Shown one piece after another: positions 19,434 through 41,296 of a DNA stretch of 64,000 bases. The stretch is taken from the NCBI RefSeq assembly GCF_037126465.1, contig NW_026999353.1:1426001-1490000 (forward strand), given 5' to 3'. This DNA comes from Ornithodoros turicata (lineage: Eukaryota > Arthropoda > Arachnida > Ixodida > Argasidae). Under the pieces are notes generated by a model that made no database searches, was not told the DNA's origin, and saw nothing but the letters and a program-made list of their open reading frames with translations. A program made the position numbers and the translations under genes. The stretch's first letter is position 1, and each line of letters begins with the position of its first letter.

Positions 19434-19436
<3 letters not shown>

Positions 19437-22417: not shown

Positions 22418-22533
22418 TTATATATATATATATATATATATACGCTAAAAAATGGAGGTTCGAACGACAAGGATGTTGTATATAGATAGAGGGGAAAAAT
22501 CAATGGCGACTTTGACTGTAACTCCAGTAACAT
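19846..22533 (-). CDS. PLE 1 protein: reverse transcriptase plus GIY-YIG endonuclease
   Basis: 895 codons uninterrupted. Residues 1-~38 derive from flank and the (TA)n tract (they read YIYIYIY), and the first internal Met (MLPQKSDN) is near 22050, so the true start is uncertain or lost. RT: KKADKGGAIVVMDKENY, GRFYMLPKIHKPGNPGRPIV, LVTLDVSSLYTNIPHEDGI (21205-21226 region), GTAMGTKMAPNYANIFMG and catalytic YKRFLDDIFMVW (~20912-20930). Then a Cys-rich CHPCDGRRCQICKLM and the GIY-YIG nuclease VIYVIQCGMCQAQYVGQTKT with RFNNHRSD and LREQ/CREQRESYLIYKF. This RT-GIY-YIG order defines canonical PLEs, which reverse-transcribe their RNA at a nicked target. The long intact frame suggests recent activity. 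Confidence 0.9.
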   Translation of the reverse strand: MLLELQSKSPLIFPLYLYTTSLSFEPPFFSVYIYIYIYNKWNEILNNASAALIEVLISHCEDAIAQSSQQAKTIDCKSVLTDNHQLELAQYAKEREEAIRNAKRRKLVRDNVNTPATLEPSVSAQDCDHISNAGTTNTPSQNRQPLARKTGPTPAASSAEMLPQKSDNVVNLSSHELTDSEISLLSRGLSFCPSNNKLDEYQLYLDLDNFARRLRLKEYFHDKPKSDSNPFKPLSNFTPEANREKALDMYIRAVQKDIINAYNKSYNSKSKPNLTPAEQRSLSELRDRSDIVIKKADKGGAIVVMDKENYINEGIRQLSCASFYKLLEADPTEEITAYIIRSLKDLKGSKKIDSTLYDYLLPKDPAAGRFYMLPKIHKPGNPGRPIVSCNGTATENFSSFVDHLLKDIPPKLPSYIKDTNHFLQVLSECQPPSSSLLVTLDVSSLYTNIPHEDGIAAAERAFSKYSDTSYDPCVLCTFLNLILKNNNFEFDGKHYLQVHGTAMGTKMAPNYANIFMGALEEEFLSKRLKKPTLYKRFLDDIFMVWPHSEDDLITFISDFNKAHPAIKFTHSYSPLTVNFLDVQVKLTNGALSTNLFRKPTDSQQYLAFNSCHPRHTKLAIPYSQALRYRRICSSDDDLDRNLAQLRETFIGRQFPPSLVDDALNKARKADRKSLFENHKRVLDNGSVNLILTFSSNIPSVNNILNRHHSILLQSERMGQIFPQPPRVTYRRGRNLHDNLVSSKVSKAAHPGNSCHPCDGRRCQICKLMQSTQVLKSTNSNFSVKINGDFDCNSSNVIYVIQCGMCQAQYVGQTKTSFRIRFNNHRSDVTKKPNLPVSRHFKQPGHSLNNVSLFILQSNFSSDRCREQRESYLIYKFQSTINEDLGALSTVRNLAA
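22418..22442. repeat. (TA)n tract between PLE 1 and PLE 2
   Basis: About 12 TA units. The open frame of PLE 1 reads through it. Confidence 0.95.
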
Positions 22534-23251
22534 TATTTACATCATTCAATGTACAACATGCTCCGCGCAATATGTAGGTCAAAGTAAAAATTTATTTACG
22601 ATTCGATTCAATAACCACCGATCAGATCTTTCGAAAAAAGGTAGCCTCCCGGTTTCCCGCCATTTTAGTCGACCCGGTCATTCCATTAGTAACGTCGCAC
22701 TTTTTATTTCAGGATCAAAGTTCACATCCGATCGCTGCAGAGAGCAACGCGAATCGTACTTGATCTACAAATTTCAATCTCTAATAATTGAGGATAAAGG
22801 AGTGCTATCAACTGTAAGAAGCATATCCGGATAACTTTTTTTCTGTGTGTCCTCAGAGTGGCCGCTGCCTCTTTTCTTCTTTTCTTTACAGCTGGACACA
22901 GTGACGCTAAGAACACCCCGGACAACAGGTTTTCAACGAGCGCGACCCCAGACCTCTCTGGAACTCCAAGGCTTTGACACGTAATCTCCCCGGCCGATGA
23001 CCCAGGAACCTTCCGGAACCTTCCAGAACATGACTCACTGACGACTGCCTCACAGTGGAATTGTACCGACTGTGACGACACTTTTGTAACCTTTTAAAAG
23101 ACCTTGTACATAGATTTTCGTCTTAGTCCCGAAGAAGGCGGAGCTTCCGCCGAAACGTAGGCTTTCCCAGACCCTTAGTTTAAATGCCAACTTAATAAAT
23201 AACTTTCCCCCACTCCCTACTTCAGTCTTTGGTGTCTTTTTTCCTCTATCT
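22443..23251 (+). mobile_element. PLE 2: GIY-YIG fragment plus pLTR
   Basis: Codons at ~22500-22834 give NGDFDC, YIIQCTTCSAQYVGQSKN, RFNNHRSD, LPVSRHFSRPGHSISN, CREQRESYLIYKF and VLSTVRSISG then stop. This is the GIY-YIG C-terminus only; the RT is missing. It is followed by 'cttttctttacag', a degenerate hammerhead-like motif (23126-23162) and 'taataaataac'. The fragment is flanked by inverted 'tatagatagagg...' (~22479) and '...cctctatctata' (~23245), and sits between PLE 1 and the inversely oriented PLE 3. Confidence 0.8.
23126..23162 (+). ncRNA. degenerate hammerhead-like motif in PLE 2
   Basis: GUC, CCGAAGA (U4C relative to CUGANGA), extra A, helix II GGCGG/CCGCC, GAAA, then CGUA instead of CGUC, so the cleavage nucleotide is changed. 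Probably inactive. Confidence 0.35.
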
Positions 23252-24498
23252 ATATTGCCATCCCTTACAGCCAAGCACTTCGATACGCGCATCTGTTCCA
23301 GTGACGATGACTTGGACAGAAATCTAGCTCAACTTAGGGAAACATTCATCGGTCGTCAATTTCCACATAGCCTAGCTGACGACGCTCTAAAAAAAGCCCG
23401 CAAAGCAGATCGCAAAGCCCTGTTCCAAGACCACAAACGGGTGTTAGATAATGGTTCCGTAAACCTCATCTTAACATTTAGCAGCAATATTCCAAGCGTT
23501 AACAATATACTAAACCGTCACCATAGTATACTTCTCCAATCGGAGCGCATGGGACAAATTTTTCCTCAGCCACCGCGGGTAACCTACAGGCGCGCGCGCA
23601 ACCTGCACGATAATGTAGTTACCTCTAAGGTTAGCAAAGCAGCGCATCCAGGGAATGGCTGTCACCCATGCGATGGTCGCAGGTGTCAAATATGCAAATT
23701 AATGCAAAGCACCCAAGTACTTAAAAGTACTAATCAAAATTTTTCCGTCAAAATTAATGGTGACTTCGACTGCAATTCATCTAACGTCATTTACGCCATT
23801 CAGTGCGGCATGTGCCAAGCACAATACGTTGGTCAGATTAAAACATCATTTCGGATCAGGTTCAACAACCACCGATCTGACGTTACAAAAAAGCCAAACC
23901 TCCCGGTGTCTCGCCATTTCAAGCAACCAGGTCATTCACTAAATAATGTGTCACTTTTTATTCTCCAGTCAAATTTTAGCTCAGATCGGTGCAGGGAACA
24001 ACGGGACTCTTATCTCATTTACAAATTCCAATCAACCATAAACGAAGATCTGGGAGCACTTTCAACGGTAAGAAATCTGGCCGCCTAGATGATCTACACT
24101 TTCTTCCTTTTCGTTTCCTTTCTGTTTTTCTTTTCCTCTTTTTTTTCAGCAAAGTTTGAAGCAGCGCTCATCCTGCCTGGAATTTTCCCCAAAGCGGACA
24201 GTGACCTACGGCGAATGACATCACCACCCGGACTTGACCTTCTGGAATATTCCCGAATCTGACTCTTTGACAAACGCCTGTGGCGTGCCCGTACCGATTA
24301 TGACGTCATATGCCAATCCTATTTAAGTAGTGTGTAACCAGCTACGCATCTTTTGTCCTGACGAAGACAGTGCCACTGTCGAAACGTCGAGTCGACCCCT
24401 TGCCCATTTTACTTTTTAACGTCTCCCTATGTAATAAACTAGTGTTTGTAATTTCCCTAAAATCTGTTTCTGCGTCTTTTTTTGAACATATACTTTTG
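23252..24498 (+). mobile_element. PLE 3: 3' half with GIY-YIG and pLTR, inverted relative to PLE 1
   Basis: 23255-24088 is open (277 codons) and near-identical to the last ~265 residues of PLE 1: SSDDDLDRNLAQLRETFIGR, CHPCDGRRCQICKLM, YVGQIKTSF and REQRDSYLIYKF. The RT palm is absent. The 3' part to 24488 matches PLE 1's pLTR including the hammerhead-like motif. PLE 1 and PLE 3 therefore form an inverted pair of about 1.23 kb (19434-20670 versus 23252-24488) around PLE 2. An in-frame Met at 23255 is probably fortuitous. Confidence 0.85.
24355..24391 (+). ncRNA. hammerhead-like motif in PLE 3 pLTR
   Basis: Same as the PLE 1 motif: box CUGACGA at 24358-24364, extra A, helix II GACAGU/ACUGUC, GAAA at 24381-24384, CGUC. 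It lies ~30 nt downstream of a 'tatttaag' TATA-like string. The helix I 3' strand reads GAG rather than GAC here. Confidence 0.45.
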
Positions 24499-24568
24499 AA
24501 TATATATATAACTATACATATATATATATATATATAACTACATATAACTTTTGAATATATATATATGT
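24499..24568. repeat. (TA)n-rich tract, PLE 3 / satellite 1 border
   Basis: Several TA runs interrupted by 'actataca', 'actacataact' and a duplicated 'cttttgaatatatat'. Confidence 0.9.
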
Positions 24569-27390
24569 TTGTAACTCAAACGCCGCCATGCCAGTACTGG
24601 ACAGCTGTTTCGGCCTTGTTGGGCCTCATCAACAGTACGCAGGCAGGCAACGTTTGAGTGGATGGCGTCAGAAGGTCACGTAACACGTGATTCCTCCCTT
24701 CAGGGTGAGATAACTCACTCACTGAAAGCCCAGTGCAAAGCCAGTGAAGTATAAAAGGAAAAAGAAATAGCTAGAGCTCATTGGCTGCACGTGTAGTATA
24801 CGTTTGTAACTCAAACGTCGCCATGCCAGTACTGGACAGCTGTTTCGGCCTTGTTGGGCCTCATCAACAGTACGCAGGCAGGCAACGTTTGAGTGGATGG
24901 CGTCAGAAGGTCACGTAACACGTGATTCCTCCCGTCAGGGTGAGATAACTCACTCACTGAAAGCCCAGTGCAAAGCCAGTGAAGTATAAAAGGAAAAAAA
25001 TAGCTAGAGCTCTTTGGCTGCACGTATAGTATACGTTTGTAACTCAAACGTCGCCATGCCAGTACTGGACAGCTGTTTCGGCCTTGTTCGGCCTCATCAA
25101 CAGTACGCAGGCAGGCAACGTTTGAGTGGATGGCGTCAGAAGGTCACGTAACACGTGATTCCTCCCGTCAGGGTGAGATAACTCACTCACTGAAAGGCCA
25201 GTGCAAAGTCAGTGAAGTATAAAAGGAAAAAAATAGCTAGAGCTCTTTGGCTGCACGTATGGTATATGTTTGTAACTCAAACGTCGCCATGCCAGTACTG
25301 GACAGCTGTTTCGGCCTTGTTGGGCCTCATCAACAGTACGCAGGCAGGCAACCTTTGAGTGGATGGTGTCAGAAGGTCACGTAACACGTGATCCCTCCCT
25401 TCAGGGTGAGATAACTCACTCACTGAAAGCCCAGTGCAAAGCCAGTGAAGTATAAAAGAAAAAAAATAACTAGAGCTCTTTGGCTGCACGTATAGTATAT
25501 GTTTGTAACTCAAACGTCGCCATGCCAGTACTGGACAGCTGTTTCGGCCTTGTTGGGCCTCATCAACAGTACGCAGGCAGGCAACGTTTGAGTGGATGGC
25601 GTCAGAAGGTCACGTAACACGTGATTCCTCCCGTCAGGGTGAGATAACTCACTCACTGAAAGCCCAGTGCAAAGCCAGTGAAGTATAAAAGGAAAAAAAA
25701 AATAGCTAGAGCTCTTTGGCTGCACGTATAGTATATGTTTGTAACTCAAACGTCGCCATGCCAGTACTGGACAGCTGTTTCGGCCTTGTTGGGCCTCATC
25801 AACAGTACGCAGGCAGGCAACGTTTGAGTGGATGGCGTCAGAAGGTCACGTAACACGAGATTCCTCCCGTCAGGATGAGATAACTCACTCACTGCAAGCC
25901 CAGTGCAAAGCCAGTGAAGTATAAAAGGAAAAAAAATAGCTAGAGCTCTTTGGCTGCACGTATAGTATATGTTTGTAACTCAAACGTCGCCATGCCACTA
26001 CTGGACAGCTGTTTCGGCCTTGTTGGGCCTCATCAACAGTACGCAGGCAGGCAACGTTTGAGTGGATGGAGTCAGAAGGTCACGTAACACGTGATTCCTC
26101 CCGCCAGGGTGAGATAACTCACTCACTGAAAGCCCAGTGCAAAGCCAGTGAGGTATCAAAGAAAAAAATAGCTAGAGCTCTTTGGCTGCACGTATAGTAT
26201 ATGTTTGTAACTCAAACCTCGCCATGCCAGTACTGAACAGCTGTTTCGGCCTTGTTGGGCCTCATCAACAGTACGCAGGCAGGCAACGTTTGAGTGGATG
26301 GCGTCAGAAGGTCACGTAACACGTGATTCATCCCGTCAGGGTGAGATAACTCACTCACTGAAAGCCCACTGCAAAGCCAGTGAAGTATAAAAGGAGAAAA
26401 AATAGCTAGAGCTCTTTGGCTGCACGAATAGTATATGTTTGTAACTCATGCGTCGCCATGCCGGTACTGGACAGCTGTTTCGGCCTTGTTGGACCTCATC
26501 AACAGTACGCAGGCAGGCAACGTTTGAGTGGATGGCGTCAGAAGGTCACGGAACACGTGATTCCTCCCGTCAGGGTGAGATAACTCACTCACTGAAAGCC
26601 CAGTGCAAAGCCAGTTACGTATACAAGGGAAAAAATAGCAGGAGCTCTTTAGCTGCACGTCACAAACATATACTATACGTGCAGCCAAAGAGCTCTAGCT
26701 ATTTTTTTCCTTTTATACTTCACTGGCATTGCACTGGGCTTTCAGTGAGTGAGTTATCTCACCCTGACGGGAGGAATCACGTGTTACGTGACCGTCTGAC
26801 GCCATCCACTCAAACGTTGCCTGCCTGCGTACTGTTGATGAGGCCCAACAAGGCCGAAACAGCTGTCCAGTACTGGCATGGCGACGTTTGAGTTACAAAC
26901 ATATACTATACGTGCAGCCAAAGAGCTCTAGCTATTTTTTTCCTTTTATACTTCACTGGCTTTGCACTGCGCTTTCAGTGAGTGAGTTATCTCACCCTGA
27001 CGGGAGGAATCACGTGTTACGTGACCTTCTGACGCCATCCACTCAAACGTTGCCTGCCTGCGTACTGTTGATGAGGCCCAACAAGGCCGAAACAGCTGTC
27101 CAGTACTGGCATGGCGACGATTGAGTTACAAACATATACTATACGTGCAGCCAAAGAGCTCTAGCTATTTTTTTCCTTTTATACTTCACTGGCTTTGCAC
27201 TGGGCTTTCCATGAGTGAGTTATCTCACCCTGACGGGAGGAATCACGTCTTACGTGGCCTTCTGACGCCTTCCACTCAAACGTTGCCTGCCTGCGTACTG
27301 TTGATGAGGCCCAACAAGGCCGAAACAGCTGTCCAGTACTGGCATGGCGACGTTTGAGTTACAAACATATACTATACGTGCAGCCAAAGA
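24569..27390. repeat. satellite 1 array A, ~233-bp monomers with hammerhead; two orientations
   Basis: Nine monomers (24569-~26655) have the hammerhead on the minus strand; three more (~26656-27390) are inverted. Period 232-235 bp, with copies differing by a few substitutions and A-run lengths. Every monomer has the 45-nt hammerhead-like segment, 'cagtgcaaagccagtgaagtata' and 'ggctgcacgtat'. Short ORFs of ~78 codons crossing each monomer are a by-product of tandem repetition. The array joins (TA)n on the left and a PLE pLTR on the right. Confidence 0.95.
24594..24638 (-). ncRNA. hammerhead ribozyme-like fold, satellite 1 (representative)
   Basis: Minus-strand reading: helix I GUACUG / CAGUAC (6 bp); box UUGAUGA (C3 replaced by U); helix II GGCC / GGCC (4 bp) closing loop CAACAA; GAAA; helix III strand ACAGCUGU, fully self-complementary; cleavage expected after GUC (24600-24602), before CAGUAC. 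The same fold recurs once per monomer, about 24 times in arrays A, B and C. C3 normally pairs with G8, so C3U should weaken catalysis. Self-complementary helix III with no loop implies cleavage as dimers or in tandem transcripts. Confidence 0.65.
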
Positions 27391-28475
27391 CGTGCCACCT
27401 GGCATTCGTCGATGAGTCACGTTCTGGAAGGTTCGTTTGTCGTGTCTGGTGTGGTGTCACTGCCCTGACGTTCCGGGATCTTCTGAAGTCAGAGCTGGGG
27501 GTCATCGTCTTTCTTCCAAAGGCTTCCAAAGTACAAATTCGAATTTTTCCATCAAAATCAACGGAGATTTTGACTGTAATTCCCCTAACATCATCTACGT
27601 CATTCAGTGTAAAGCACGTGAATGTCAGTATGTGGGACAAAGTAAAACATCCTTCAGAATCAGGTTTAATAACCACAGATCAGACGTTAGCAAGAAGCCG
27701 AAGCTTCCTGTTTCCCGCCATTTCAAACAGCCCGGTCACTCAATAAATGACGTCCTCCTTTTTTTCTTGAATCAAATTTCAATTCTGACAGATGCAGGGA
27801 ACAACGCGAGTCATATATGATTTATAAGTTTAAATCCGCAATCAATGAAGATCCCGGTGTACTGTCAGCAGTTAGAAACTTAAACAATTAGCTATCCTCC
27901 GTGTCGCCCTGTTCTTCTTCTCTTTCAGATATGGCTGGAGGACATCTCCGCACTACGGACAATGCTACGGAAAAAACCCGATAGGTTACTTGGCCTTACA
28001 TGGACTATTGATGAAGCAACAAGGCCACGAGAACAACAACGCCCCAAACAACGACTTCCCGAGAAGGCCACCTAAGGCTCCAAGATACGATGACGTAAAC
28101 CCCAGACTCCCAGATAATGATTTCACCACGGACGACGCCTTTGGAAGAAAGACGATGACCCCCAGCTCTGACTTCAGAAGATCCCGGAACGTCAGGGCAG
28201 TGACACCACACCGGACACGACAAACGAACCTTCCAGAACGTGACTCATCGACGAACGCCAGGTGGCGCGAATACACAAGATTACGTCAGCAAGCTGAAAC
28301 CATAAAGGCTTTGGACAGTCTTGTTGCCTCTTCTGTCCCGAAGAAGGAGGAGCTTCCCTCCGAAACGTCGACACTTCCCCATTTTCCTAAATAATGTTTT
28401 TATTATGTAAAATGAAACTTTGTTTGTATTCTATTAACACCTCAAGTCCGTCGCTATATCCCCTTTCCTTTCGCT
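27391..28475 (+). mobile_element. PLE 4: GIY-YIG fragment with inverted pLTR pieces
   Basis: 27394-27530 is an inverted copy of 28135-28270 in the pLTR, giving terminal inverted pieces as often seen in Penelope insertions. Codons ~27530-27891 encode STNSNFSIKINGDFDC, YVIQC, QYVGQSKTSFRIRFNNHRSD, LPVSRHFKQPGHSIND and, after a frameshift near 27770, REQRESYMIYKFKSAINED then stop. Then come 'cttctctttcag' and a hammerhead-like motif at 28335-28372. The RT is missing. Confidence 0.8.
28335..28372 (+). ncRNA. hammerhead-like motif in PLE 4 pLTR (U4C)
   Basis: GUC, box CCGAAGA (U4C), extra A, helix II GGAGG/CCUCC with AGCUUC loop, GAAA, CGUC, GAC. The U4C change is shared with the adjacent satellite 2. 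Confidence 0.4.
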
Positions 28476-28501
28476 TATATATATATATATATATATATAT
28501 G
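28476..28501. repeat. (TA)n tract, PLE 4 / satellite 2 border
   Basis: About 12 TA units leading directly into 'tatgtttactgatcg' of satellite 2. Confidence 0.95.
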
Positions 28502-31500
28502 TTTACTGATCGAGCGTGCCACAATCCCAGCTGTGGACGGCCGTTTCGAGCTTCTTGGCTCTCATCGGCACAGCGTAGGGATGTGACACGCTCTTGGGTC
28601 GGCACAAACACTGTGTCTCTGCAAGACATCAATGTTCCAGGGTGTTAGCAACACCTCTGGAGGCCGCAGTGCAAAGCCAGTAAGTACAGATACAAATATA
28701 AAAATGAGCAAATGCTCCATGGCTGCACGTGAGGCATATGTTTACTGATCGAGCGTGCCACAATCCCAGCTGTGGACGGCCGTTTCGAGCTTCTTGGCTC
28801 TCATCGGCACAGCGTAGGGATGTGACACGCTCTTGGGTCGGCACAAACACTGTGTCTCTGCAAGACATCAATGTTCCAGGGTGTTAGCAACACCTCTGGA
28901 GGCCGCAGTGCAAAGCCAGTAAGTACAGATACAAATATAAAAATGAGCAAATGCTCCATGGCTGCACGTGAGGCATATGTTTACTGATCGAGCGTGCCAC
29001 AATCCCAGCTGTGGACGGCCGTTTCGAGCTTCTTGGCTCTCATCGGCACAGCGTAGGGATGTGACACGCTCTTGGGTCGGCACAAACACTGTGTCTCTGC
29101 AAGACATCAATGTTCCAGGGTGTTAGCAACACCTCTGGAGGCCGCAGTGCAAAGCCAGTAAGTACAGATACAAATATAAAAATGAGCAAATGCTCCATGG
29201 CTGCACGTGAGGCATATGTTTACTGATCGAGCGTGCCACAATCCCAGCTGTGGACGGCCGTTTCGAGCTTCTTGGCTCTCATCGGCACAGCGTAGGGATG
29301 TGACACGCTCTTGGGTCGGCACAAACACTGTGTCTCTGCAAGACATCAATGTTCCAGGGTGTTAGCAACACCTCTGGAGGCCGCAGTGCAAAGCCAGTAA
29401 GTACAGATACAAATATAAAAATGAGCAAATGCTCCATGGCTGCACGTGAGGCATATGTTTACTGATCGAGCGTGCCACAATCCCAGCTGTGGACGGCCGT
29501 TTCGAGCTTCTTGGCTCTCATCGGCACAGCGTAGGGATGTGACACGCTCTTGGGTCGGCACAAACACTGTGTCTCTGCAAGACATCAATGTTCCAGGGTG
29601 TTAGCAACACCTCTGGAGGCCGCAGTGCAAAGCCAGTAAGTACAGATACAAATATAAAAATGAGCAAATGCTCCATGGCTGCACGTGAGGCATATGTTTA
29701 CTGATCGAGCGTGCCACAATCCCAGCTGTGGACGGCCGTTTCGAGCTTCTTGGCTCTCATCGGCACAGCGTAGGGATGTGACACGCTCTTGGGTCGGCAC
29801 AAACACTGTGTCTCTGCAAGACATCAATGTTCCAGGGTGTTAGCAACACCTCTGGAGGCCGCAGTGCAAAGCCAGTAAGTACAGATACAAATATAAAAAT
29901 GAGCAAATGCTCCATGGCTGCACGTGAGGCATATGTTTACTGATCGAGCGTGCCACAATCCCAGCTGTGGACGGCCGTTTCGAGCTTCTTGGCTCTCATC
30001 GGCACAGCGTAGGGATGTGACACGCTCTTGGGTCGGCACAAACACTGTGTCTCTGCAAGACATCAATGTTCCAGGGTGTTAGCAACACCTCTGGAGGCCG
30101 CAGTGCAAAGCCAGTAAGTACAGATACAAATATAAAAATGAGCAAATGCTCCATGGCTGCACGTGAGGCATATGTTTACTGATCGAGCGTGCCACAATCC
30201 CAGCTGTGGACGGCCGTTTCGAGCTTCTTGGCTCTCATCGGCACAGCGTAGGGATGTGACACGCTCTTGGGTCGGCACAAACACTGTGTCTCTGCAAGAC
30301 ATCAATGTTCCAGGGTGTTAGCAACACCTCTGGAGGCCGCAGTGCAAAGCCAGTAAGTACAGATACAAATATAAAAATGAGCAAATGCTCCATGGCTGCA
30401 CGTGAGGCATATGTTTACTGATCGAGCGTGCCACAATCCCATGGAGCATTTGCTCATTTTTATATTTGTATCTGTACTTACTGGCTTTGCACTGCGGCCT
30501 CCAGAGGTGTTGCTAACACCCTGGAACATTGATGTCTTGCAGAGACACAGTGTTTGTGCCGACCCAAGAGCGTGTCACATCCCTACGCTGTGCCGATGAG
30601 AGCCAAGAAGCTCGAAACGGCCGTCCACAGCTGGGATTGTGGCACGCTCGATCAGTAAACATATGCCTCACGTGCAGCCATGGAGCATTTGCTCATTTTT
30701 ATATTTGTATCTGTACTTACTGGCTTTGCACTGCGGCCTCCAGAGGTGTTGCTAACACCCTGGAACATTGATGTCTTGCAGAGACACAGTGTTTGTGCCG
30801 ACCCAAGAGCGTGTCACATCCCTACGCTGTGCCGATGAGAGCCAAGAAGCTCGAAACGGCCGTCCACAGCTGGGATTGTGGCACGCTCGATCAGTAAACA
30901 TATGCCTCACGTGCAGCCATGGAGCATTTGCTCATTTTTATATTTGTATCTGTACTTACTGGCTTTGCACTGCGGCCTCCAGAGGTGTTGCTAACACCCT
31001 GGAACATTGATGTCTTGCAGAGACACAGTGTTTGTGCCGACCCAAGAGCGTGTCACATCCCTACGCTGTGCCGATGAGAGCCAAGAAGCTCGAAACGGCC
31101 GTCCACAGCTGGGATTGTGGCACGCTCGATCAGTAAACATATGCCTCACGTGCAGCCATGGAGCATTTGCTCATTTTTATATTTGTATCTGTACTTACTG
31201 GCTTTGCACTGCGGCCTCCAGAGGTGTTGCTAACACCCTGGAACATTGATGTCTTGCAGAGACACAGTGTTTGTGCCGACCCAAGAGCGTGTCACATCCC
31301 TACGCTGTGCCGATGAGAGCCAAGAAGCTCGAAACGGCCGTCCACAGCTGGGATTGTGGCACGCTCGATCAGTAAACATATGCCTCACGTGCAGCCATGG
31401 AGCATTTGCTCATTTTTATATTTGTATCTGTACTTACTGGCTTTGCACTGCGGCCTCCAGAGGTGTTGCTAACACCCTGGAACATTGATGTCTTGCAGAG

Positions 31501-31904
31501 ACACAGTGTTTGTGCCGACCCAAGAGCGTGTCACATCCCTACGCTGTGCCGATGAGAGCCAAGAAGCTCGAAACGGCCGTCCACAGCTGGGATTGTGGCA
31601 CGCTCGATCAGTAAACATATGCCTCACGTGCAGCCATGGAGCATTTGCTCATTTTTATATTTGTATCTGTACTTACTGGCTTTGCACTGCGGCCTCCAGA
31701 GGTGTTGCTAACACCCTGGAACATTGATGTCTTGCAGAGACACAGTGTTTGTGCCGACCCAAGAGCGTGTCACATCCCTACGCTGTGCCGATGAGAGCCA
31801 AGAAGCTCGAAACGGCCGTCGACAGCTGGGATTGTGGCACGCTCGATCAGTAAACATATGCCTCACGTGCAGCCATGGAGCATTTGCTCATTTTTATATT
31901 TGTA

Positions 31905-31906
<2 letters not shown>
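28502..31906. repeat. satellite 2 array, 239-bp monomers with hammerhead; head-to-head inversion at ~30440
   Basis: Eight monomers with the hammerhead on the minus strand (28502-~30440), then six inverted (30441-31906). The period is exactly 239 bp and copies look identical base for base except at the inversion junction and the last copy (C to G at about 31819, in helix I). Shared boxes with satellite 1 are 'cagtgcaaagccagtaa' and 'ggctgcacgtg'. Repeated 80-codon ORFs are periodic artefacts. The extreme homogeneity means very recent amplification or an assembly effect. Confidence 0.95.
30587..30631 (+). ncRNA. hammerhead ribozyme-like fold, satellite 2 (representative)
   Basis: Helix I GCUGUG (30587-30592) / CACAGC (30626-30631), 6 bp; box CCGAUGA (30593-30599; U4 replaced by C); helix II GAGC / GCUC with loop CAAGAA; GAAA (30614-30617); helix III strand ACGGCCGU (30617-30624), self-complementary; cleavage after GUC at 30625. 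It is 45 nt long, the same as the satellite 1 and 3 motifs, with different helix sequences. Fourteen copies. Confidence 0.65.
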
Positions 31907-31945
<39 letters not shown>

Positions 31946-31951
31946 GTATAA
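31907..31951. repeat. (TA)n tract, satellite 2 / satellite 3 border
   Basis: About 18 TA units, ending 'gtatatgtataatgcagg' where satellite 3 begins. Confidence 0.95.
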
Positions 31952-34357
31952 TGCAGGAAAAAAGCCATTAAAGGAACAAATAAATGATACTAGACGTGTT
32001 TGTAATTCAAACTTACAGATTAATATGGCTTCTATGGCTGCACGCAGAGAAACAGATACTCATGGAACGATGCGGCAGCACCAGAGGACACGTGTTTCGC
32101 CGTGTTTGCGGCTCGTCAGCCCTGGGTAGCTGCGCATCGTTCCGAATTGGCAAACCAGGGGTCACTCAGCGAGCGATCTACACCTGGGAGGGTGACTGAG
32201 CACACCTCAATGCCACAGTGCAAGCCAGTGAATTATAATGCAGGAAAAAAGCCATTAAAAGAACAAATAAATGATACTAGACGTGTTTGTAATTCAAACT
32301 TACAGATTAATATGGCTTCTATGGCTGCACGCAGAGAAACCGATACTCATGGAACGATGCGGTAGCAGCAGAGGACACGTGTTTCGCCGTGTTTGCGGCT
32401 CGTCAGCCCTGGGTAGCTGCGCATCGTTCCAAATTGGCAAACCAGGGGTCACTCAGCGAGCGATCTACACCTGGGAGGGTGACTGAGCACACCCCAATGC
32501 CACAGTGCAAGCCAGTGAATTATAATGCAGGAAAAAAGCCATTAAAGGAACAAATAAATGATATTAGACGTGTTTGTAATCAAAATTACAGATTAATGTG
32601 GCTTCTATGGCTGCACGCAGAGAAACAGATACTCATGGAACGATGCGGCAGCACCAGAGGACACGTGTTTCGCCGTGTCTGTGGCTCGTCAGCCCTGGGT
32701 AGCTGCGCATCGTTCTGAATTGGCAAACCAGGGGTCACTCAGCGAGTGATCTACACCTGGGAGGGTGACTGAGCACACCTCAATGCCACAGTGCAAGCCA
32801 GTGAATTATAATGCAGGAAAAAAGCCATTAAAGGAACAAATAAATGATACTAGACGTGTTTGTAATTCAAACTTACAGATTAATATGGCTTCTATGGCTG
32901 CACGCAGAGAAACAGATACTCATGGAACGATGCGGCAGCACCAGAGGACACGTGTTTCGCCGTGTTTGCGGCTCGTCAGCCCTGGGTAGCTGCGCATCGT
33001 TCCGAATTGGCAAACCAGGGGTCACTCAGCGAGCGATATACACCTGGGAGGGTGACTGAGCACACCTCAATGCCACAGTGCAAGCCAGTGAATTATAATG
33101 CAGGAAAAAAAGCCAATAAAGTAACAAATAAATGATACTAGACGCGTTTGTAATTCAAACTTACAGATTAATATGGCTTCTATGGCTGCACGCAGAGAAA
33201 CAGATACTCATGGAACGATGCGGCAGCACCAGAGGACACGTGTTTCGCCGTGTTTGTGGCTCGTCAGCCCTGGGTAGCTGCGCATCGTTCTGAATTGGCA
33301 AACCAGGGGTCACTCAGCGAGTGATCTACACCTGGGAGGGTGACTGAGCACACCTCAATGCCACAGTGCAAGCCAGTGAATTATAATGCAGGAAAAAAGC
33401 CATTAAAGGAACAAATAAATGATACTAGACGTGTTTGTAATTCAAACTTACAGATTAATATGGCTTCTATGGCTGCACGCAGAGAAACAGATACTCATGG
33501 AACGATGCGGCAGCACCAGAGGACACGTGTTTCGCCGTGTTTGCGGCTCGTCAGCCCTGGGTAGCTGCGCATCGTTCCGAATTGGCAAACCAGGGGTCAC
33601 TCAGCGAGCGATCTACACCTGGGAGGGTGACTGAGCACACCTCAATGCCACAGTGCAAGCCAGTGAATTATAATGCAGGAAAAAAGCCATTAAAGTAACA
33701 AATAAATGATACTAGACGCGTTTGTAATTCAAACTTACAGATTAATATGGCTTCTATGGCTGCACGCAGAGAAACAGATACTCATGGAACGATGCGGCAG
33801 CACCAGAGGACACGTGTTTCGCCGTGTTTGCGGCTCGTCAGCCCTGCGTAGCTGCGCATCGTTCCGAATTGGCAAACCAGGGGTCACTCAGCGAGCGATC
33901 TACACCTGGGAGTGTGACTGAGCACACCTCAATGCCACAGTGCAAGCCAGTGAATTATAATGCAGGAAAAAGCCATTAAAGGAACAAATAAATGATATTA
34001 GACGTGTTTGTAATTCAAACTTACAGATTAATATGGCTTTTATGGCTGCACGCAGAGAAACAGATACTCATGGAACGATGCGGCAGCACCAGATGACACG
34101 TGTTTCAGCGTGTTTGCGGCTCGTCAGCCCTGGGTAGCTGCGCATCGTTCCGAATTGGCAAACCAGGGGTCACTCAGCGAGCGATCTACACCTCGGAGGG
34201 TGACTGAGCACACCTCAATGCCACAGTGCAAGCCAGTGAATTATAATGCAGGAAAAAAGCCATTAAAGGAACAAATAAATGATACTAGACGTGTTTGTAA
34301 TTCAAACTTACAGATTAATATGGCTTCTATGGCTGCACGCAGAGAAACAGATACTCT
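31952..34357. repeat. satellite 3 array, 287-bp monomers with canonical hammerhead
   Basis: Eight full monomers and a partial ninth, period 287 bp ('gcaggaaaaa' recurs at ~31953, 32240, 32527, 32814, 33101, 33388, 33675, 33962, 34249). Copies differ by a few substitutions and single-base indels. Boxes shared with satellites 1 and 2 are 'cagtgcaagccagtgaattata' and 'ggctgcacgca'. All copies face the same way (hammerhead on the minus strand). The array is cut at 34357 and continues into a PLE pLTR. Confidence 0.95.
32081..32125 (-). ncRNA. hammerhead ribozyme, satellite 3 (representative; canonical core)
   Basis: Minus-strand reading: helix I CCAGGG (complement of 32120-32125) / CUCUGG (32081-32086), 6 bp with one G-U; box CUGACGA (32113-32119), fully conserved; helix II GCCG / CGGC with loop CAAACA; GAAA (32095-32098); helix III strand ACACGUGU (32088-32095), self-complementary; cleavage after GUC (32087-32089). 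Every invariant nucleotide of a type I hammerhead is present. Repeats at 287-bp intervals give about eight copies, some with helix I mismatches (for example GCAGAG at ~32366). Confidence 0.8.
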
Positions 34358-34763
34358 GTTTCTGAAACAGAGTATGAGACAGAAACAGCATTCTTTTTTT
34401 TTTCAGCTATGGCGTCAGTACAGCTCACCCTGAGCTGGCTCCCCAAGAAAGATGACATCACCACCCGGACTTGACCTTGCGGAATGTTCCAGAATATGAC
34501 TCAGACAACTGCCACGTGGCATACTTGCACCGATTGTGACGTCACCCAGGAAACCTATTTAAGCAATATGCAACCCTTATACCTCTTTTGTCCTGACGAA
34601 GACAGTGCCACTGTCGAAACGTCGACCATTTTTTTAATCTATGTGTTAAATTGCCCATTAAATATATTAGTTTTTGTTAACGTTCCTGTAATCTGTAGTC
34701 CAAGTCTTATTATTTCACTTTTATTCAACTTCGTAGCCGTCTAATATATTAACCTATTTGTCC
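34358..34763 (+). mobile_element. solo PLE pLTR
   Basis: Matches the pLTR of PLE 3: 'tttttttttcagc', 'gacatcaccacccggacttgacctt', 'cctatttaagcaatatgcaaccc', hammerhead-like motif (34590-34626), then T-rich end. No coding part attached. Joined directly to a broken satellite 3 monomer on the left and a (TA)n tract on the right. Confidence 0.75.
34590..34626 (+). ncRNA. hammerhead-like motif in solo pLTR
   Basis: GUC (34590-34592), CUGACGA (34593-34599), extra A, helix II GACAGU/ACUGUC, GAAA (34616-34619), CGUC, GAC. The core boxes match satellite 3 immediately upstream. Confidence 0.5.
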
Positions 34764-34795
<32 letters not shown>

Positions 34796-34796
34796 G
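34764..34796. repeat. (TA)n tract, pLTR / PLE 5 border
   Basis: Two TA runs around 'tacata'. Confidence 0.95.
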
Positions 34797-35690
34797 GTAT
34801 TCAATAAAGATCAGAAGTGGAGACGGGAGGAACATCCAAGACAGACTTGTGAACGCCAAGTTAAACAAGCCGTCGGAACACAACGGTTGTCAACCATGCA
34901 ACGGACGCAGATGCCAGATCTGTAAATTAATGCAAACTGCTACCAGAGTAGAAAGCACAAATTCCAGCTATCGCACAAAAATTAATGGTCTATTTAACTG
35001 TAACTCTTCTAACGTCCTTTATCTCCTTCAATGTAATGAGTGCAAGGCCCAATATATCGGTCAAACAGCTACATCCTTCAGAATCCGATTCAACAAGCAC
35101 AGGTCCGACGTATCAAAGAAACCGAATCTGTCAGTGTCTCGACATTTTAGTATACCCGGCCACTCAATTAACGACATAGCCATTTTCGTTCTGCAATCGG
35201 GTTTTCCATCCCAACGCCTTAGAGAACAAAGAGATTCGTTCCTGATCTACAAATTTAAAAGCCAGATTAACGAGGACCCCGGCGTCCTCTCAACAGTTCG
35301 CAACCTAAATTCCTAATTCTCTCAAAATACATACACTCTTTCGTATCTCTTTCAGACTCCCCGGTTGGTCACCCCATGAAATCATTGCCCTCCGGCGAAG
35401 AACATGACTGCCTGTGATTCATTGTACCCTTTTACCTTTGTTTGACAAAGCACGTGTGCTGCTCTCTCCCCTTGTACATATTCCCCTCTCATTCTTTGCA
35501 ATTGTCTTGCGTCACCATAATATCCCATTCCTGTTGAAGACATCGCTGCTGTCGAAACGTCGAATACTCCCTCTTAGTTTTTAATAAAGTTCCCCTTTTA
35601 TTCCTTGTCCTGTAGAAGCACCGTCTCCACTTCTGATCTTTATTGGATACCTTTATTTTTCGTGGTCAACCGCATTCGTTTATTTCAACT

Positions 35691-35691
<1 letters not shown>
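34797..35691 (+). mobile_element. PLE 5: Zn-finger/GIY-YIG fragment plus pLTR
   Basis: From ~34820 to 35316 one frame encodes RNIQDRLVNAK, CQPCNGRRCQICKLM, YLLQCNECKAQYIGQTATS, RFNKHRSD, LREQRDSFLIYKF and VLSTVRNLNS then stop: the PLE C-terminus. Downstream are 'tctctttcag', a weakened hammerhead-like motif (about 35528-35565, box CUGUUGA) and 'aataaag'. A 33-bp segment 'aggtattcaataaagatcag...' (34795-34827) is inverted at 35621-35654, giving the insertion inverted ends. The RT is absent. Confidence 0.82.

Positions 35692-35721
<30 letters not shown>
35692..35721. repeat. (TA)n tract, PLE 5 / satellite 1 border
   Basis: About 14 TA units running into 'tatgtttgtaactcaaacg' of satellite 1. 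Confidence 0.95.
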
Positions 35722-35724
<3 letters not shown>

Positions 35725-38002
35725 TGTAACTCAAACGTCGCCATACCAGTACTGGACAGCTGTTTCGGCCTTGTTGGGCCTCATCAACAGTACGCAGGCG
35801 GGCAACGTTTGAGTGGATGGCGTCAGAAGGTCACGTAACACGTGATTCCTCCTGTCAGGGTGAGATAACTCACTCACTGAAACCCCAGTGCAAAGACAGT
35901 GAAGTATACAAGGAAAAAAAGCAGGAGCTCTTTGGCTGCACGTATAGCATATGTTTGCAACTCAAACCTGGCCATGCGAGTACTGGACAGCTGATTCGGC
36001 CTTGTTGGGCCTCATCAACAGTACGCCGGCTGGCAACGTTTGAGTGGATGGCGTCAGAAGGTCACGTAACACGTGATTCCTCCTGTCAGGGTGAGATAAC
36101 TCACTCACTGAAAGCCCAGTGCAAAGCCAGTGAAGTATACATGAAAAAAAAAGCAGGAGCTCTTTGGTTGCACGTGTAGCATATGTTTGTAACTCAAACG
36201 TCGCCATGCCAGTACCGGACAGCTGTTTCGGCCTTGTTGGGCCTCATCAACAGTACGCAGGCAGGCAACGTTTGAGTGGATGGCGTCAGAAGGTCACGGA
36301 ACACGTGATTCCTCCTCTCAGGGTGAGATAACTCACTCACTGAAAGCCCAGTGCAAAGCCAGTGAAGTATACAAGGAAAAAAAGCAGGAACACTTGGCTG
36401 CAGGTATAGCATATGTTTGTAACTCAAACGTTGCCATGCCAGTGCTGGACAGCTTCTTTCGGCCTTGTTGGGCCTCATCAACAGTACGCGGGCAGGCAAC
36501 GTTTGAGTGAATGGCGTCACAAGGTCACGTAACACGTAATTCATCCTGTCGGGGTGAGATAACTCACTCACTGAAAGGCCAGTGCAAAGCCAGTGAAGTA
36601 TACAAGGAAACAAATAGCAGGAGCTCTTTGGCTGCACGTATAGCATATGTTTGTAGCTCAAACGTCGCCATGCCAGTACTGGACAGCTGTTTCGGCCTTG
36701 TTGGGCCTCATCAACAGTACGCAGGCAGGCAACGTTTGAGTGGATGGCGTCAGAAGGTCACGTAACACGTGATTCCTCCTGTCAGGCTGAGATAACTCAC
36801 TCACTGAAACCCCAGTGCAAAGACAGTGAAGTATACAAGGAAACAAATAGCAGGAGCTCTTTGGCTGCACGTATAGCGTATGTTTGTAGCTCAAACGTCG
36901 CCATGCCAGTACTGGACAGCTGTTTCGGCCTTGTTGGGCCTCGTCAACAGTACGCAGGCAGGCAACGTTTGAGTGGATGGCGTCAGAAGGTCACGTAATA
37001 CGTGATTCCTCCTGTCAGGCTGAGATAACTCACTCACTGAAAGCCCAGTGCAAAGCCAGTGAAGTATACAAGGAAAAAAAAGTAGCAGGAGCTCTTTGGC
37101 TGCACGTATAGCATATGTTTGTAACCCGAACCTCGCCATGCCGGTACTGGACAGCTGTTTCGGCCTTGTTGAGCCTCATCAACAGTACGCCGGCTGGCAA
37201 CGTTTGAGTGGATGGCGTCAGAAGGTCACGCAGCACGTGATTCCTCCTGTCAGGGTCAGATAACTCACTCACTGAAAGCCCAGTGCAAAGCCAGTGAAGT
37301 ATATATGAAAAAAAAAGCAGGAGCTCTTTGGTTGCACGTGTAGCATATGTTTGTAACTCAAACGTCGCCATGCCAGTACTGGACATCTGTTTCGGCCTTG
37401 TTGGGCCTCATCAACACTACGCAGGCAGGCAACGTTTGAGTGGATGGCGTCAGAAGGTCACGTAACACGTCATTCCTCCTGTCGGGGTGAGATAACTCAC
37501 TCACTGAAAGGCCAGTGCAAAGCCAGTGAAGTATACAAGGAAACAAATAGCAGGAGCTCTTTGGCTGCACGTATAGCATATGTTTGTAACTCAAACATCG
37601 CCATGCCAGTACTGGACAGCTGTTTCGGCCTTGTTGGGCCTCATCAACAGTAGGCAGGCAGGCAATGGTTGAGTGGATCGCGTCAGAAGGTCACGTAACA
37701 CGTGATTCCTCCTGTCAGGGTGAGACAACTCACTCACTGAAAGCCCAGTACAAAGCCAGTGAAGTATACAAGGAAAAAAAATAGCAGCAGGTCTTTGGCT
37801 GCACGTATAGCATACGTTTGTAACTCAAACGTCGCCGCGCCGGTACTGGACAGCTCTTTCGGCCTTGTTGAGCCTCATCAACAGTACGCAGGCAGGCAAC
37901 GTTTGAGTGGATGGCGTCAGAAGGTCACCTGACACGTGACCTCCTGTTAGGGTGAGATAACTCACTCACTGAAAGCCCAGTGCAAAGCCAGTGAAGTATA
38001 CA
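35722..38002. repeat. satellite 1 array B, ~233-bp monomers
   Basis: About ten monomers, all with the hammerhead on the minus strand. They are more diverged from each other than in array A, with a 'gtataca' variant of the 'gtataaa' string and several mutated hammerheads (for example at ~36453 and ~37850). Ends in 'gaagtatacaag' joined to a PLE fragment. Confidence 0.95.
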
Positions 38003-38469
38003 AGACATTTGCGACATTTTAGTAAACCTGGTCACTCAATAAACTACATAGCCATTTTCGTTCTGCAATCGGGTTTTCCATCCCAACGCCTTAGAACAAA
38101 GAGAATCGTTTCTGATTTACAAATCTAAAATTAAAGAGGACCCCGGCGTCCTCTCAACTGTTCGCAACCTAATTTCCTAATTCCCTCTCTTACAGACTCC
38201 CCGGTTGGTCACCCCAGAAAATGATTGCCCTCTAGTGAAGAACATGACTGCCTGTGATTCATTGTACCCTTTTACATTTGTTTGACAAAGCACGTGTGCT
38301 GCCCTCTCCCCTTGTACATATTCCCCTCTCATTCTTTGGATCTGTCTTGCGTCACTATAATATCCCATTCCTGTTGAAGACTCTCCTCCCCTCTTTCCTC
38401 TTACTTTTTAATGAAGTCCCCCTTTTATATCTTTATTTTTCATGGTCAACTGCATTCATTTATTTCGAC
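38003..38469 (+). mobile_element. PLE 6: short GIY-YIG end plus pLTR
   Basis: 'RHFSKPGHSIN-IAIFVLQSGFPSQRL' is readable at 38010-38095, then a frameshift; 'cctctcttacagactccccggttgg' and the following pLTR match PLE 5 closely. The pLTR has lost the GAAA part of the hammerhead-like motif (only 'cctgttgaagactctcc' near 38370). Confidence 0.75.
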
Positions 38470-40898
38470 ATATATATATATATATTCCAAATTCCTCCAA
38501 ATTCCTCCAAAAGAAAAACATCCACCTGAAGCTCCAAAAGCAAAAGAAATTATTTAGAGACAAAATCGATTGCCCTCCAACTCATAATACTTCCACAGAT
38601 TCGGCACCCCCTAATTCCGAAGCCCGTAGCAATACTTCACAACTACGTCCAGATACCCCGTTAGACAGCAACAGCCAGTTTGCTCCCGACATCCCCACAC
38701 TAACCAAATGTAGCGTAGTTAACCTTTCTTCCCGTGACCTTGCACCCGCGGAAATCTCTCTACTGGAGAAGGGATTATCGTTTTGTCCCAATAACAGTAA
38801 AATCGATGAATATCAGCTACATCTGGATCTTGACAACTTTGCGCGGCGACTACGCCTTACGGAATACTTCTACGACAAACCGCAATCAAACCTAAATCCT
38901 TTCCGTATAAAATCCGATTTTACTCCCAACCCGAACCGAGATAAAAGTCTTGATATGTATATCAAAGCTGTTCAGAAAGATATTCTCAGTACTTATGCAA
39001 GCTCAAACAATCGGAAATTCCGGCACAATCTTACGAAAGCAGAACAGCAAAGCTTGTCCGCGCTAGAAAGCAACGAAGGTATCATCATCAAACAGGCTGA
39101 TAAAGGAGGTGCCATAGTCGTAATGGATAAGCAAGCTTACGTGGCGGAAGGACTCCGTCAACTTAATTGTGCAGACTTTTACAAACCTCTCGAATCCGAC
39201 CCCACTAATGAAATTGCCGCAGATATATGTAAAACACTAAAACGGTTAAAGACCACTAAGAAAATTGGCGATGCGCTCTATGAATACTTACTTCCTAAAG
39301 ATCCTAAACCAGGCCGATTTTACATGCTCCCTAAGATACATAAACCAGGCAATCCCGGAAGACCAATTGTGTCCAGTAACGGTACCGCTACAGAAAATAT
39401 ATCGTCCTTCGTCGATCACGTTCTCAAATCTATCCCCCCTAAATTACCTTCCTACGTCAAAGATACCAACCATTTCCTTCAAACTGTATCGCAAGTAACC
39501 GTTCCCTCAAGCTGTCTCTTGGCAACGTTAGACGTCACGTCCCTTTACACTAATATTCCCCACGCAGATGGTATAGCAGCGGCCGTTTCAGCATACAAAA
39601 ATCAACCTGACCAGCCGTATGATCCTGCTGTCCTCACCGAACTGCTAACACTGATTGTGACCTCCAATAACTTTGAATTTGATAACAAGCACTATCTGCA
39701 AGTTAACGGGACAGCTATGGGCACGAGAATGGCCCCCAACTATGCAAATATCTTCATGGCATCCCTGGAGGAAACATTTCTCGAATGTTCCGTGTTGAAA
39801 CCACTTGTGTACAAGAGATTTTTAGATGATATTTTTATCATATGGCCTCATTCTGAAAGTGACCTTCTCACGTTCATCAACCGGTTCAACCAAATTCACC
39901 CTAACATTCAATTTACCTCCCACTACTCCGCCTCCACTGTTACCTTCTTGGATGTGGAAGTCAAGTTACAAAACGGCGGCATCTCAACCAACTTATACCG
40001 GAAGCCTACAGATGCTCAGCAATACTTATCGTTCCGCAGTTGCCATCCAAGGCATACTAAGTTAGCCATACCTTATAGTCAGGCATTGCGCTACCGCAGA
40101 ATATGCACTAACGATGCCGAACTAGACAACCATCTCCAACGACTAGAACAAACCTTCATTGATCGTGAATACCCGGACAAACTTGTTAAAGACGCTATAG
40201 CCAGAGCAAGATCCACAGATCGCCAACAATTGCTCCAAAGATCTCCTCGAGCCAATGGAAATTCTGCAGTAAATCTCACTGTCACATTCAATGGCAGCGT
40301 TCCTAACATTAGCCGGATACTCAACCGCCACTACACAATTCTTTCACAATCTGATCGGATGAAGGAAATATTCTCACAGCCACCGCGCGTAAGTTATCGC
40401 CGGGCGCGGAACATCCAAGACAGACTAGTAAATGCCAAAATTAACAAACTTCCAGAAAATAACATTGGTTGCCACCCTTGTAATGCAACTAGATGCCAAA
40501 TTTGTAAATCAATGCAAGCCGCTAACTCTGCAGATAGTACCAATTCTAATTATCGGGTCAACATTAATGGCGACTTTAACTGTAATTCTTCCAATGTTGT
40601 CTATCTTCTTCAATGTAATGAATGCAACGCCCAATATATCGGACAGACAGCTACTTCATTTAGAACGCGATTCAATAACCACAAATCTGACGTCGCGAAG
40701 AAACCTAATCTGCCAGTGTCGCGCCATTTCAGTAAACCAGGACACTCAATCACCAATATATCTATTTTCATCCTGCAGTCAGGCTTTCTTTCCCAGCGGC
40801 TCAGGGAACAGCGCGAGTCTTATCTCATTCATAAATTCCAGTGTCAGATAAACGAAGATCCAGGAATCCTTTCTACTATTCGCAACCTGCATTCCTAA
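38442..40898 (+). CDS. PLE 7 protein: reverse transcriptase plus GIY-YIG endonuclease
   Basis: 818 codons uninterrupted; the first ~17 residues read through the (TA)n tract (HIYIYI), so the native start is unknown. The N-terminus begins ~60 residues later than PLE 1's by alignment. RT: IKQADKGGAIVVMDKQAY, GRFYMLPKIHKPGNPGRPIV, LLATLDVTSLYTNIPHADGI (~39523-39580), GTAMGTRMAPNYANIFMA and catalytic YKRFLDDIFIIW (~39818-39838). Then CHPCNATRCQICKSM and GIY-YIG VVYLLQCNECNAQYIGQTA with RTRFNNHKSD and LREQRESYLIHKF. All catalytic landmarks look intact. Such a protein could supply reverse transcriptase and nuclease to the hammerhead satellites, which is inference from proximity. Confidence 0.9.
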   Translation: MVNCIHLFRHIYIYIPNSSKFLQKKNIHLKLQKQKKLFRDKIDCPPTHNTSTDSAPPNSEARSNTSQLRPDTPLDSNSQFAPDIPTLTKCSVVNLSSRDLAPAEISLLEKGLSFCPNNSKIDEYQLHLDLDNFARRLRLTEYFYDKPQSNLNPFRIKSDFTPNPNRDKSLDMYIKAVQKDILSTYASSNNRKFRHNLTKAEQQSLSALESNEGIIIKQADKGGAIVVMDKQAYVAEGLRQLNCADFYKPLESDPTNEIAADICKTLKRLKTTKKIGDALYEYLLPKDPKPGRFYMLPKIHKPGNPGRPIVSSNGTATENISSFVDHVLKSIPPKLPSYVKDTNHFLQTVSQVTVPSSCLLATLDVTSLYTNIPHADGIAAAVSAYKNQPDQPYDPAVLTELLTLIVTSNNFEFDNKHYLQVNGTAMGTRMAPNYANIFMASLEETFLECSVLKPLVYKRFLDDIFIIWPHSESDLLTFINRFNQIHPNIQFTSHYSASTVTFLDVEVKLQNGGISTNLYRKPTDAQQYLSFRSCHPRHTKLAIPYSQALRYRRICTNDAELDNHLQRLEQTFIDREYPDKLVKDAIARARSTDRQQLLQRSPRANGNSAVNLTVTFNGSVPNISRILNRHYTILSQSDRMKEIFSQPPRVSYRRARNIQDRLVNAKINKLPENNIGCHPCNATRCQICKSMQAANSADSTNSNYRVNINGDFNCNSSNVVYLLQCNECNAQYIGQTATSFRTRFNNHKSDVAKKPNLPVSRHFSKPGHSITNISIFILQSGFLSQRLREQRESYLIHKFQCQINEDPGILSTIRNLHS
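38470..38485. repeat. (TA)n tract, PLE 6 / PLE 7 border
   Basis: Eight TA units; the PLE 7 frame reads through it. Confidence 0.95.

Positions 40899-41255: not shown

Positions 41256-41257
<2 letters not shown>
38486..41257 (+). mobile_element. Penelope-like element, PLE 7 (near full length)
   Basis: Plus-strand element between (TA)n tracts. The ORF ends at 40898, followed by 'tctctttttcagg', 'catatataaagc' (TATA-like), a degenerate hammerhead-like motif (~41098-41136, box CCGUCGA, helix II GGCAG/CUGCC, GAAA, CGUC, GACC) and 'taataaactcccc'. Clearly a different subfamily from PLE 1, at moderate protein identity. Confidence 0.85.

Positions 41258-41292: not shown

Positions 41293-41296
<4 letters not shown>

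Follow-up and report, generated by a model that had tools for sequence, protein, structure and literature searches.

How do tandem arrays built around a small hammerhead ribozyme come to be inserted in an animal genome? The question is raised by a 64,000-nt stretch of the soft tick Ornithodoros turicata (C71:1426001-1490000 of the assembly, hereafter the window), in which the segment from 19.39 to 41.53 kb consists, by self-BLAST and junction reading, mostly of retrozyme arrays and of copies of Penelope-like elements (PLEs). Judged by their sequences, the three tandem families of the window, A, B and C, are non-LTR (long terminal repeat) retrozymes, a kind already known in animals. What is new here is the manner of their insertion, with PLE-type ends, pairing of arrays and joints to PLEs. 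Since these insertions share published features of PLE insertions, the retrozyme RNA is probably reverse-transcribed by a PLE protein that acts in trans where the DNA is broken. The array ends, the head-to-head pairing and the PLE joints are the most informative features of the locus, and were absent from an earlier, sequence-only reading of the same DNA.

End positions, pairing, joints and some border repeats can be read directly from the genome. We counted unit positions from the base after the cleavage site and scored the window together with about 30 further loci fetched from the same assembly. Sample 1 was taken from the best hammerhead scores, with some flanks; sample 2 comprised 20 loci chosen for their high identity to unit A, with shorter arrays preferred and several long ones left out (e.g. 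C1:51.33 Mb, C115, C124 and C326). Neither sample was picked by end structure. A fourth family, D, of 233 bp, was found elsewhere in the genome and is absent from the window.

With site windows fixed after all data had been seen (A 32-43 and 73-86; B 32-43 and 82-93; C 28-38 and 124-145; D 31-41 and 80-90), 60 of 73 hand-curated 3' ends fall at two sites of the unit, 32 at site 1 and 28 at site 2. The proportion is 7/8 in the window, 29/35 in sample 1 and 24/30 in sample 2. The 5' ends lie at these sites in 8 of 70 cases, with a chance expectation of ~11% (Fisher p 1.7e-18 versus 3' ends). Undoing the hand corrections leaves 59/73 3' ends on-site, and adding the pieces of the complex locus L066 gives 59/76 against 8/74 for 5' ends (Fisher 1.6e-17). 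Narrower windows, preset before sample 2, hold 23 of its 30 3' ends if those running on into TA are placed at 38, 14 of 30 if the raw run-on end at 43 is kept, and 2 of 30 5' ends. In family D, 15 of 19 3' ends are within 5 nt of position 36 or 85; both positions align with the sites of B and were written down after the D ends had been seen. Two further D 3' ends, at C206 (L030) and C1:69.88 Mb (L027), lie near 173-178, possibly a minor third start site.

Several items were dropped from the end count: internal BLAST splits and N gaps in long arrays (C206, C1:191.38 Mb), ends at locus borders, L054, which is filled by one array, L066 (3' positions 227, 58 and 187, 0/3 on-site), and 11 loci with a 190-220-bp piece of family D (L012-L019, L021, L026 and L036). 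These 11 loci belong to a dispersed repeat, TATATAGTG-rich where read, and the piece that it carries reads as a retrozyme fragment captured by another repeat. At C1:38.2 Mb, a D piece interrupted by an insert was counted as one arm. Corrections by hand concerned window ends run into TA by BLAST, the minus arm of L050 (91 to ~77, by eye) and two 5' ends; four further 5' ends (positions 6, 286, 25 and 1) were omitted from the curated count.

The two sites are distributed over paired arms in a regular way. Counted by hand, the retrozymes form 22 head-to-head pairs, with gaps of up to ~120 bp between arms; the window contributes 3 of these pairs, sample 1 contributes 11 and sample 2 contributes 8. 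Both arms end on-site in 16 of them, and in 15 of these 16 the arms take different sites, one arm site 1 and its partner site 2 (binomial p 2.6e-4; 14/15 and p 4.9e-4 without the hand-corrected L050), the exception being an A pair at C1:105.13 Mb. Repeats flank three of six insertions examined at their borders: 12 bp at L045, a single arm; 12 bp at L050; and 16 bp at L058, a single array inside a PLE8-type copy. L050 is an A(-)/A(+) pair in non-TA DNA with GTAGAATAC on both sides, where the 12 bp include bases that also match the unit, and its arms end at ~77 (by eye) and 34. Finally, with a probe library that held PLEs only, we identified three retrozyme-PLE joints, head-to-head or within one arm. 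Two are in the window: one, at 38004-38014, is between A2(-) and PLE5(+), and the other is at the PLE8 region, where C(-) stops at 34356. The third is at L024, where a C(-) array continues into a head-to-head P1(-)/P1(+) piece. Some elements touch tail-to-tail across (TA)n, e.g. at L046 and L049, and these contacts could be successive insertions.

We therefore propose the following course of events. Tandem transcripts would be cut to unit length by the type I hammerhead and closed to circles, by analogy with published relatives. A PLE protein would act at a DNA break, often in a (TA)n tract, and cDNA would start either at site 1, ~33-38 nt past the cleavage site, or at site 2, ~45-107 nt further. 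Copying would roll round the circle, giving tandem units, with no set point at which it ends. Often, the two broken strands would both be extended, one per site, and a 5'-to-5' junction between the cDNAs would make a head-to-head pair; occasionally, one strand would copy a retrozyme and the other a PLE. Open reading frames (ORFs) of PLEs with reverse transcriptase and GIY-YIG matches lie between the arrays.

What such an enzyme might recognize is suggested by two boxes, GUGCAGCC and GGCUU(U)GCAC, which come after the two sites. These boxes are conserved across the four unit families and mutually complementary, with a pairing probability of 0.14 to 1.0 in the circular fold. We conjecture that they may form an enzyme-binding place. 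A tentative extension, to which we give somewhat less than even chances, is that a PLE dimer holds the circle at the conserved element and copies it onto both break strands, one per site, the retrozyme being a reduced form of PLE recognition element that also carries a circularising ribozyme. By eye, CGTGG occurs near the 3' ends of P1, P3 and P4 (CGTAG in PLE8, CATGG in PLE5), and the tail-less end of P1 and P3 lies ~9-10 nt before this box, while retrozymes have (C/T)GTGCAGCC ~7-11 nt after site 1; P7 and PLEx are without such a box near their ends, and we take the resemblance as a lead only. If up to 3 mismatches are allowed, the longer 16-nt box CACTGGCTTTGCACTG is matched 43 times in the window: 40 times in arrays, once in PLE7 antisense (27605) and twice elsewhere, at 5419 and 17881. 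By this distribution, the PLEs do not share that box.

A number of observations weigh against copying by a PLE. The circles, the PLE enzyme and the order of steps are what we infer from the insertions. Of the 3' ends, 13/73 miss both sites, and six pairs have an off-site arm and so stand outside the 15/16 (window A1, D at C206, C at C1:205, L048, L053 and L068). Many arrays are unpaired, and the two longest that we saw have a single orientation, with ~54 D units on C3 and C units over ~19.8 kb at C1:191.38 Mb. The C3 array (L010/L011, C3:106.824-106.837 Mb) has no TA at its ends and no partner arm; its 3' end, at position 31, is still at site 1. The spacing of the two sites, 45-107 nt, is wider than the 30-40-bp tail of PLEs, and PLE pairs themselves vary: in seven compared, leaving out the window's P1a/PLEx pair, a tail-like difference of 35-36 nt appears in two (PLE3 of the window, and P3 at C1:69.88 Mb, 828 versus 863), four have like ends (C206 P3, L047 PX, L055 PX and C1:162 Mb P1) and the arms of PLE7 differ by ~206 nt, which is not tail-like. 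At the borders, L029 and L059 have no repeat and L048 has 6 bp of TA type. Lastly, unit variants recur within the A2 and C arrays (e.g. A2m_2/A2m_7, Cm_3/Cm_5 and Cm_4/Cm_6), so some of these copies probably arose by later DNA-level exchange.

One alternative, which we consider unlikely, does without any particular enzyme: a broken (TA)n end would anneal to UAUA runs in the circle and be extended by any reverse transcriptase. Both sites of A, B and D indeed hold ATAT/TATA, UAUA-like runs in the RNA, which annealing could choose without a PLE protein, a further point against our proposal, and on-site ends mostly adjoin (TA)n. That (TA)n is always present at the ends was an idea we had to reject, since identical 3' sites occur at non-TA targets. 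Site 1 of C (GAGTATCT) matches TA little, and in L050, L059, L029 and the C3 array these sites serve at targets without TA, which argues against annealing being all; moreover, PLE ends such as ACTTG or TAATC stand beside (TA)n without a match.

Quite unlikely, too, is that a LINE-type (long interspersed element, non-LTR) reverse transcriptase moves the retrozymes and that the head-to-head joints reflect twin priming. Twin priming does produce inversions, Jockey-like ORFs are recognizable by eye in the window, and border repeats of 9-16 bp fit LINEs as well. LINE copies, however, usually begin at the 3' end of the RNA, and the retrozyme copies begin internally, at two sites divided between the arms, as published for PLEs. 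The three fused partners are likewise all PLEs, though the search library held PLE pieces only and the partner search was thus uneven. That the arrays are ordinary satellite DNA, grown by unequal crossing-over and inverted duplication with the hammerhead as a passenger, is very unlikely: the recurring unit variants and the very long single-orientation arrays elsewhere in the genome speak for it, but the contrast between 3' and 5' ends, the direct joints with PLE copies, the 12-16-bp repeats at both borders of L045, L050 and L058, and the A1 arms, whose units differ by 3.25% between arms and by 3.44% within the minus arm, as expected of one event, all speak against it.

The sequence-only reading had seen one 45-nt hammerhead architecture with covarying helices in all three families, and named Rfam models as a check. 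In an Rfam covariance-model search of the window, where the cut-off of RF00163 (Hammerhead type I) is 34 bits, the motif passed in A (24594-24638, minus strand) and C (32081-32125, minus strand), both full-length matches of 40.6 bits (E ~7e-7). It did not pass in B: 13 of its 14 copies match Hammerhead_HH9 (31.9 bits, cut-off 52, E 1.7e-4) and the remaining one matches Hammerhead_1 with 25.3 bits, at the relaxed threshold only. Hammerhead matches above cut-off number 22. At E of at most 1, the relaxed-threshold search returned 53 rows, 7 of them microRNAs; the other 46 are hammerheads, of which 44 fall at 24.5-38.0 kb and the last two form an inverted pair at 41.3 kb. In viral contigs, a degenerate type I hammerhead pattern gave a single match, at L001 3268-3299 (+).

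Covariation is borne out by five hammerheads (A1, A2, A3, B and C). All 70 of 70 cells pair, and both sides have changed in 10 of 14 pairs, which none of 500 shuffles equalled; in slid structures, 20-36% pair. The hammerhead of B (30587-30631, plus strand; HH9 match over 30576-30646) thus has all its helices paired despite its sub-cut-off score. The helices quoted earlier are correct, among them helix I (GUACUG/CAGUAC, GCUGUG/CACAGC and CCAGGG/CUCUGG) and helix II (GGCC/GGCC, GAGC/GCUC and GCCG/CGGC). The 6-bp length given for helix I is not: in predicted folds, the helix continues past an internal loop.

Nor is the catalytic box as nearly fixed as had been claimed. Within the window, it is canonical (CUGANGA) solely in C and the A3 pair, while family A has UUGANGA (C3U) and family B CCGAUGA (U4C). 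A flank-anchored pattern run over the window and the fetched loci counts 73 TTGATGA or TTGACGA, 4 CTGATGA and 2 TTTATGA in A, 14 CCGATGA in B, 8 CTGACGA and 4 CCGACGA in C, and 34 CTGANGA in D. By these counts, the A and B variants look like family states and not like decay of single copies. Because of them, self-cleavage of families A and B, a prediction, is less sure. As outlined in PMC3088659, U4C lowers activity in vitro, viroid infectivity still being possible; for a C3U core, our literature search found no report.

Outside the ribozyme, Tandem Repeats Finder gives periods of 233, 239 and 287 bp for A, B and C. The three periods of the sequence-only reading stand, but the families are not three independent satellites, because their homology extends beyond the hammerhead (A-B 76% over 80 nt, E 8e-11; A-C E 2e-6). 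Its term retrozyme-like is supported by most of the traits that a sequence can reveal, namely the type I hammerhead, the 233-287-bp tandem monomers, the covariation, the small coding capacity and the stable folds. The longest ORF from an ATG on the unit circle has 31-79 aa and none is endless. The circular minimum free energy has z of -5.4, -5.0 and -2.5 against 100 shuffles; antisense strands, however, also score low (z -4.1, -4.7 and -3.5). Unit GC is 0.485 in A, 0.477 in C, 0.515 in B and 0.562 in D.

In the window, the elements are stacked as divergent pairs, by our manual segmentation. In order, these are P1a(-)/PLEx-P1b(+), A1(-)/A1(+), PLE7(-)/PLE7(+), B(-)/B(+), C(-)/PLE8(+), a short PLE3(-)/PLE3(+), A2(-)/PLE5+PLE4(+) and A3(-)/A3(+). 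The window's 11 tracts of at least 7 TA (or AT) all lie within 19394-41527, at or between PLE and retrozyme ends. With the exception of 27390/27391, the outer 3' ends in the stack adjoin TA-rich tracts. Four of the PLE copies hold a minimal hammerhead that a strict pattern detects.

From the left, (TA)20 at 19394-19433 adjoins the 3' end of P1a, a long PLE on the minus strand (19434-22418) with an RVT_1 match, a GIY-YIG match of 21.3 bits, under the cut-off of 22.6, and a minimal hammerhead at 19531-19561. Head-to-head to the P1a side, on the plus strand at 22496-24499, PLEx (22496 to ~23228) is followed with no TA between by P1b (~23229-24499; 93% to P1a), which has its minimal hammerhead at 24358-24388. 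The A1(-) array (24558-26660; ~9 copies of 233 bp), to which the A hammerhead at 24594-24638 belongs, has its 3' end at site 1 in a TA-rich tract (~24500-24565) and meets A1(+) (26659-27390; ~3 copies) head-to-head at 26659-26662. A1(+) stops at position 57, where it meets an inverted PLE7 piece; this 27390-27391 junction shows neither TA nor a recognisable site. The PLE7 pair (27391-28475) consists of 27391-27526 on the minus strand, 97% identical to 28269-28134, head-to-head with 27528-28475 on the plus strand, whose 3' end is at (TA)n. B(-) (28497-30441; 239-bp units, each 100% to the reference by blastn) and B(+) (30439-31910) overlap by 3 bp at 30439-30441, and both have 3' ends at (TA)n, at site 1 and site 2, respectively.

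The C array (31947-34356, minus strand; 287-bp units) has its 3' end at (TA)n at site 2, and its 5' end meets the region of PLE8, the 3' part of a PLE on the plus strand (34452-34763; 80% to P1b over 177 bp; minimal hammerhead 34593-34623). Homology of PLE8 to P1b is certain from ~34452 only, 34357-34451 lying outside it. PLE3 (34829-35692, plus strand), a 5'-truncated PLE with a minimal hammerhead at 35534-35561 and GIY-YIG at 20.4 bits, again below 22.6, has a short inverted arm, 34791-34826, that matches 35656-35621 and so ends ~36 nt earlier, without the "tail". A2(-) (35718-38004), of family A, has its 3' end at (TA)n at site 1, and its 5' end faces the 5' end of PLE5 (38012-38469, plus strand), a 5'-truncated copy 82% identical to PLE3, at ~38004-38014. 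Next comes PLE4 (38486-41257, plus strand), a long PLE; ORF 38415-40898 matches RVT_1 and GIY-YIG, and the closest match of the protein is an Ornithodoros turicata protein (63%). The A3 pieces of family A, A3(-) (41293-41389; one hammerhead) and A3(+) (41384-41517), are head-to-head, with 3' ends at (TA)n at site 1 and site 2. That PLE5-PLE4 simply inserted into A2 was considered and rejected: A2 stops near position 76, A3(-) resumes at ~37 after a 35-bp TA tract, and the A3 hammerhead differs.

Beyond the stack, 41512-41560 holds (TA)8 then CAGGGTGTTC, which by eye we take to resemble the end of a TA-targeting DNA transposon. Long ORFs that by eye resemble Jockey-type and Gypsy-type retroelements occupy 13608-16787, 49253-51448 and 52194-55930, and the Rfam search reports a tRNA match at 1264-1329.

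Animal retrozymes produce abundant circular RNAs, and in the account of PMC7229834 the agent that copies them is so far a proposal: PLEs were put forward as a strong candidate on the grounds of shared type I hammerheads, tandem occurrence and coexistence, and the idea recurs in the relevant passages of PMC7761336, PMC8969392 and PMC11722881. Because the insertions described here carry PLE-type ends, and some are fused to PLEs, the proposal becomes testable with one protein and one RNA, and the conserved stretch is a possible place for the enzyme to bind. We found no description of PLE-type ends or PLE joints of retrozymes in the retrozyme and Penelope literature since 2020, a search outside which most subscription papers, preprints and supplements lie. 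If true, copying by a PLE would answer how animal ribozyme elements spread, and would suggest that a circular template is acceptable to PLE reverse transcription, which could lay down a tandem array in one event.

The units resemble the metazoan non-LTR retrozymes, as these are summarized in PMC7229834, in their type I hammerhead, in short tandem units (170-400 nt published, 233-287 here), in the presence of several families per genome and in the coexistence of PLEs with minimal hammerheads. They differ by the C3U and U4C cores of two families, and by defined ends, head-to-head pairing and PLE joints, which we did not meet with in that account. Their GC content of 48-56% is at or above the <50% given there. 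Another soft tick, Argas monolakensis, has a retrozyme whose predicted fold was drawn in 2016 (PMC4918200).

On the side of the PLEs, the endonuclease-containing ones of Adineta vaga (PMC3846280) have head-to-head inverted arms, one of which may bear a 31-bp tail, and duplications of 8-10 bp; they have apparently mobilised another sequence in trans, an NRPS (non-ribosomal peptide synthetase) gene. Inverted arms and a tail on one arm have their likeness here, apparent trans mobilisation probably does, and short border repeats are present at three of the six sites examined. In our case, by contrast, the inserted body is a ribozyme array and the tail-like interval is longer; for the head-to-head arms, that paper favours self-priming on antisense RNA. 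A biochemical parallel is the purified protein of the Anolis PLE Poseidon, which, according to PMC11167929, has a preference for AT-rich DNA and both cuts and extends the two strands. It begins copying within the RNA, at a pair of neighbouring sites between which the tail lies. An AT-rich target, cutting and extension of both strands and two internal start sites are common to both systems, assayed on the enzyme there and deduced from genomic ends here. The Poseidon sites, however, are adjacent, belong to the RNA of the element itself and lack homology to the target, whereas the sites described here are on the RNA of another element, 45-107 nt apart and often UAUA-like.

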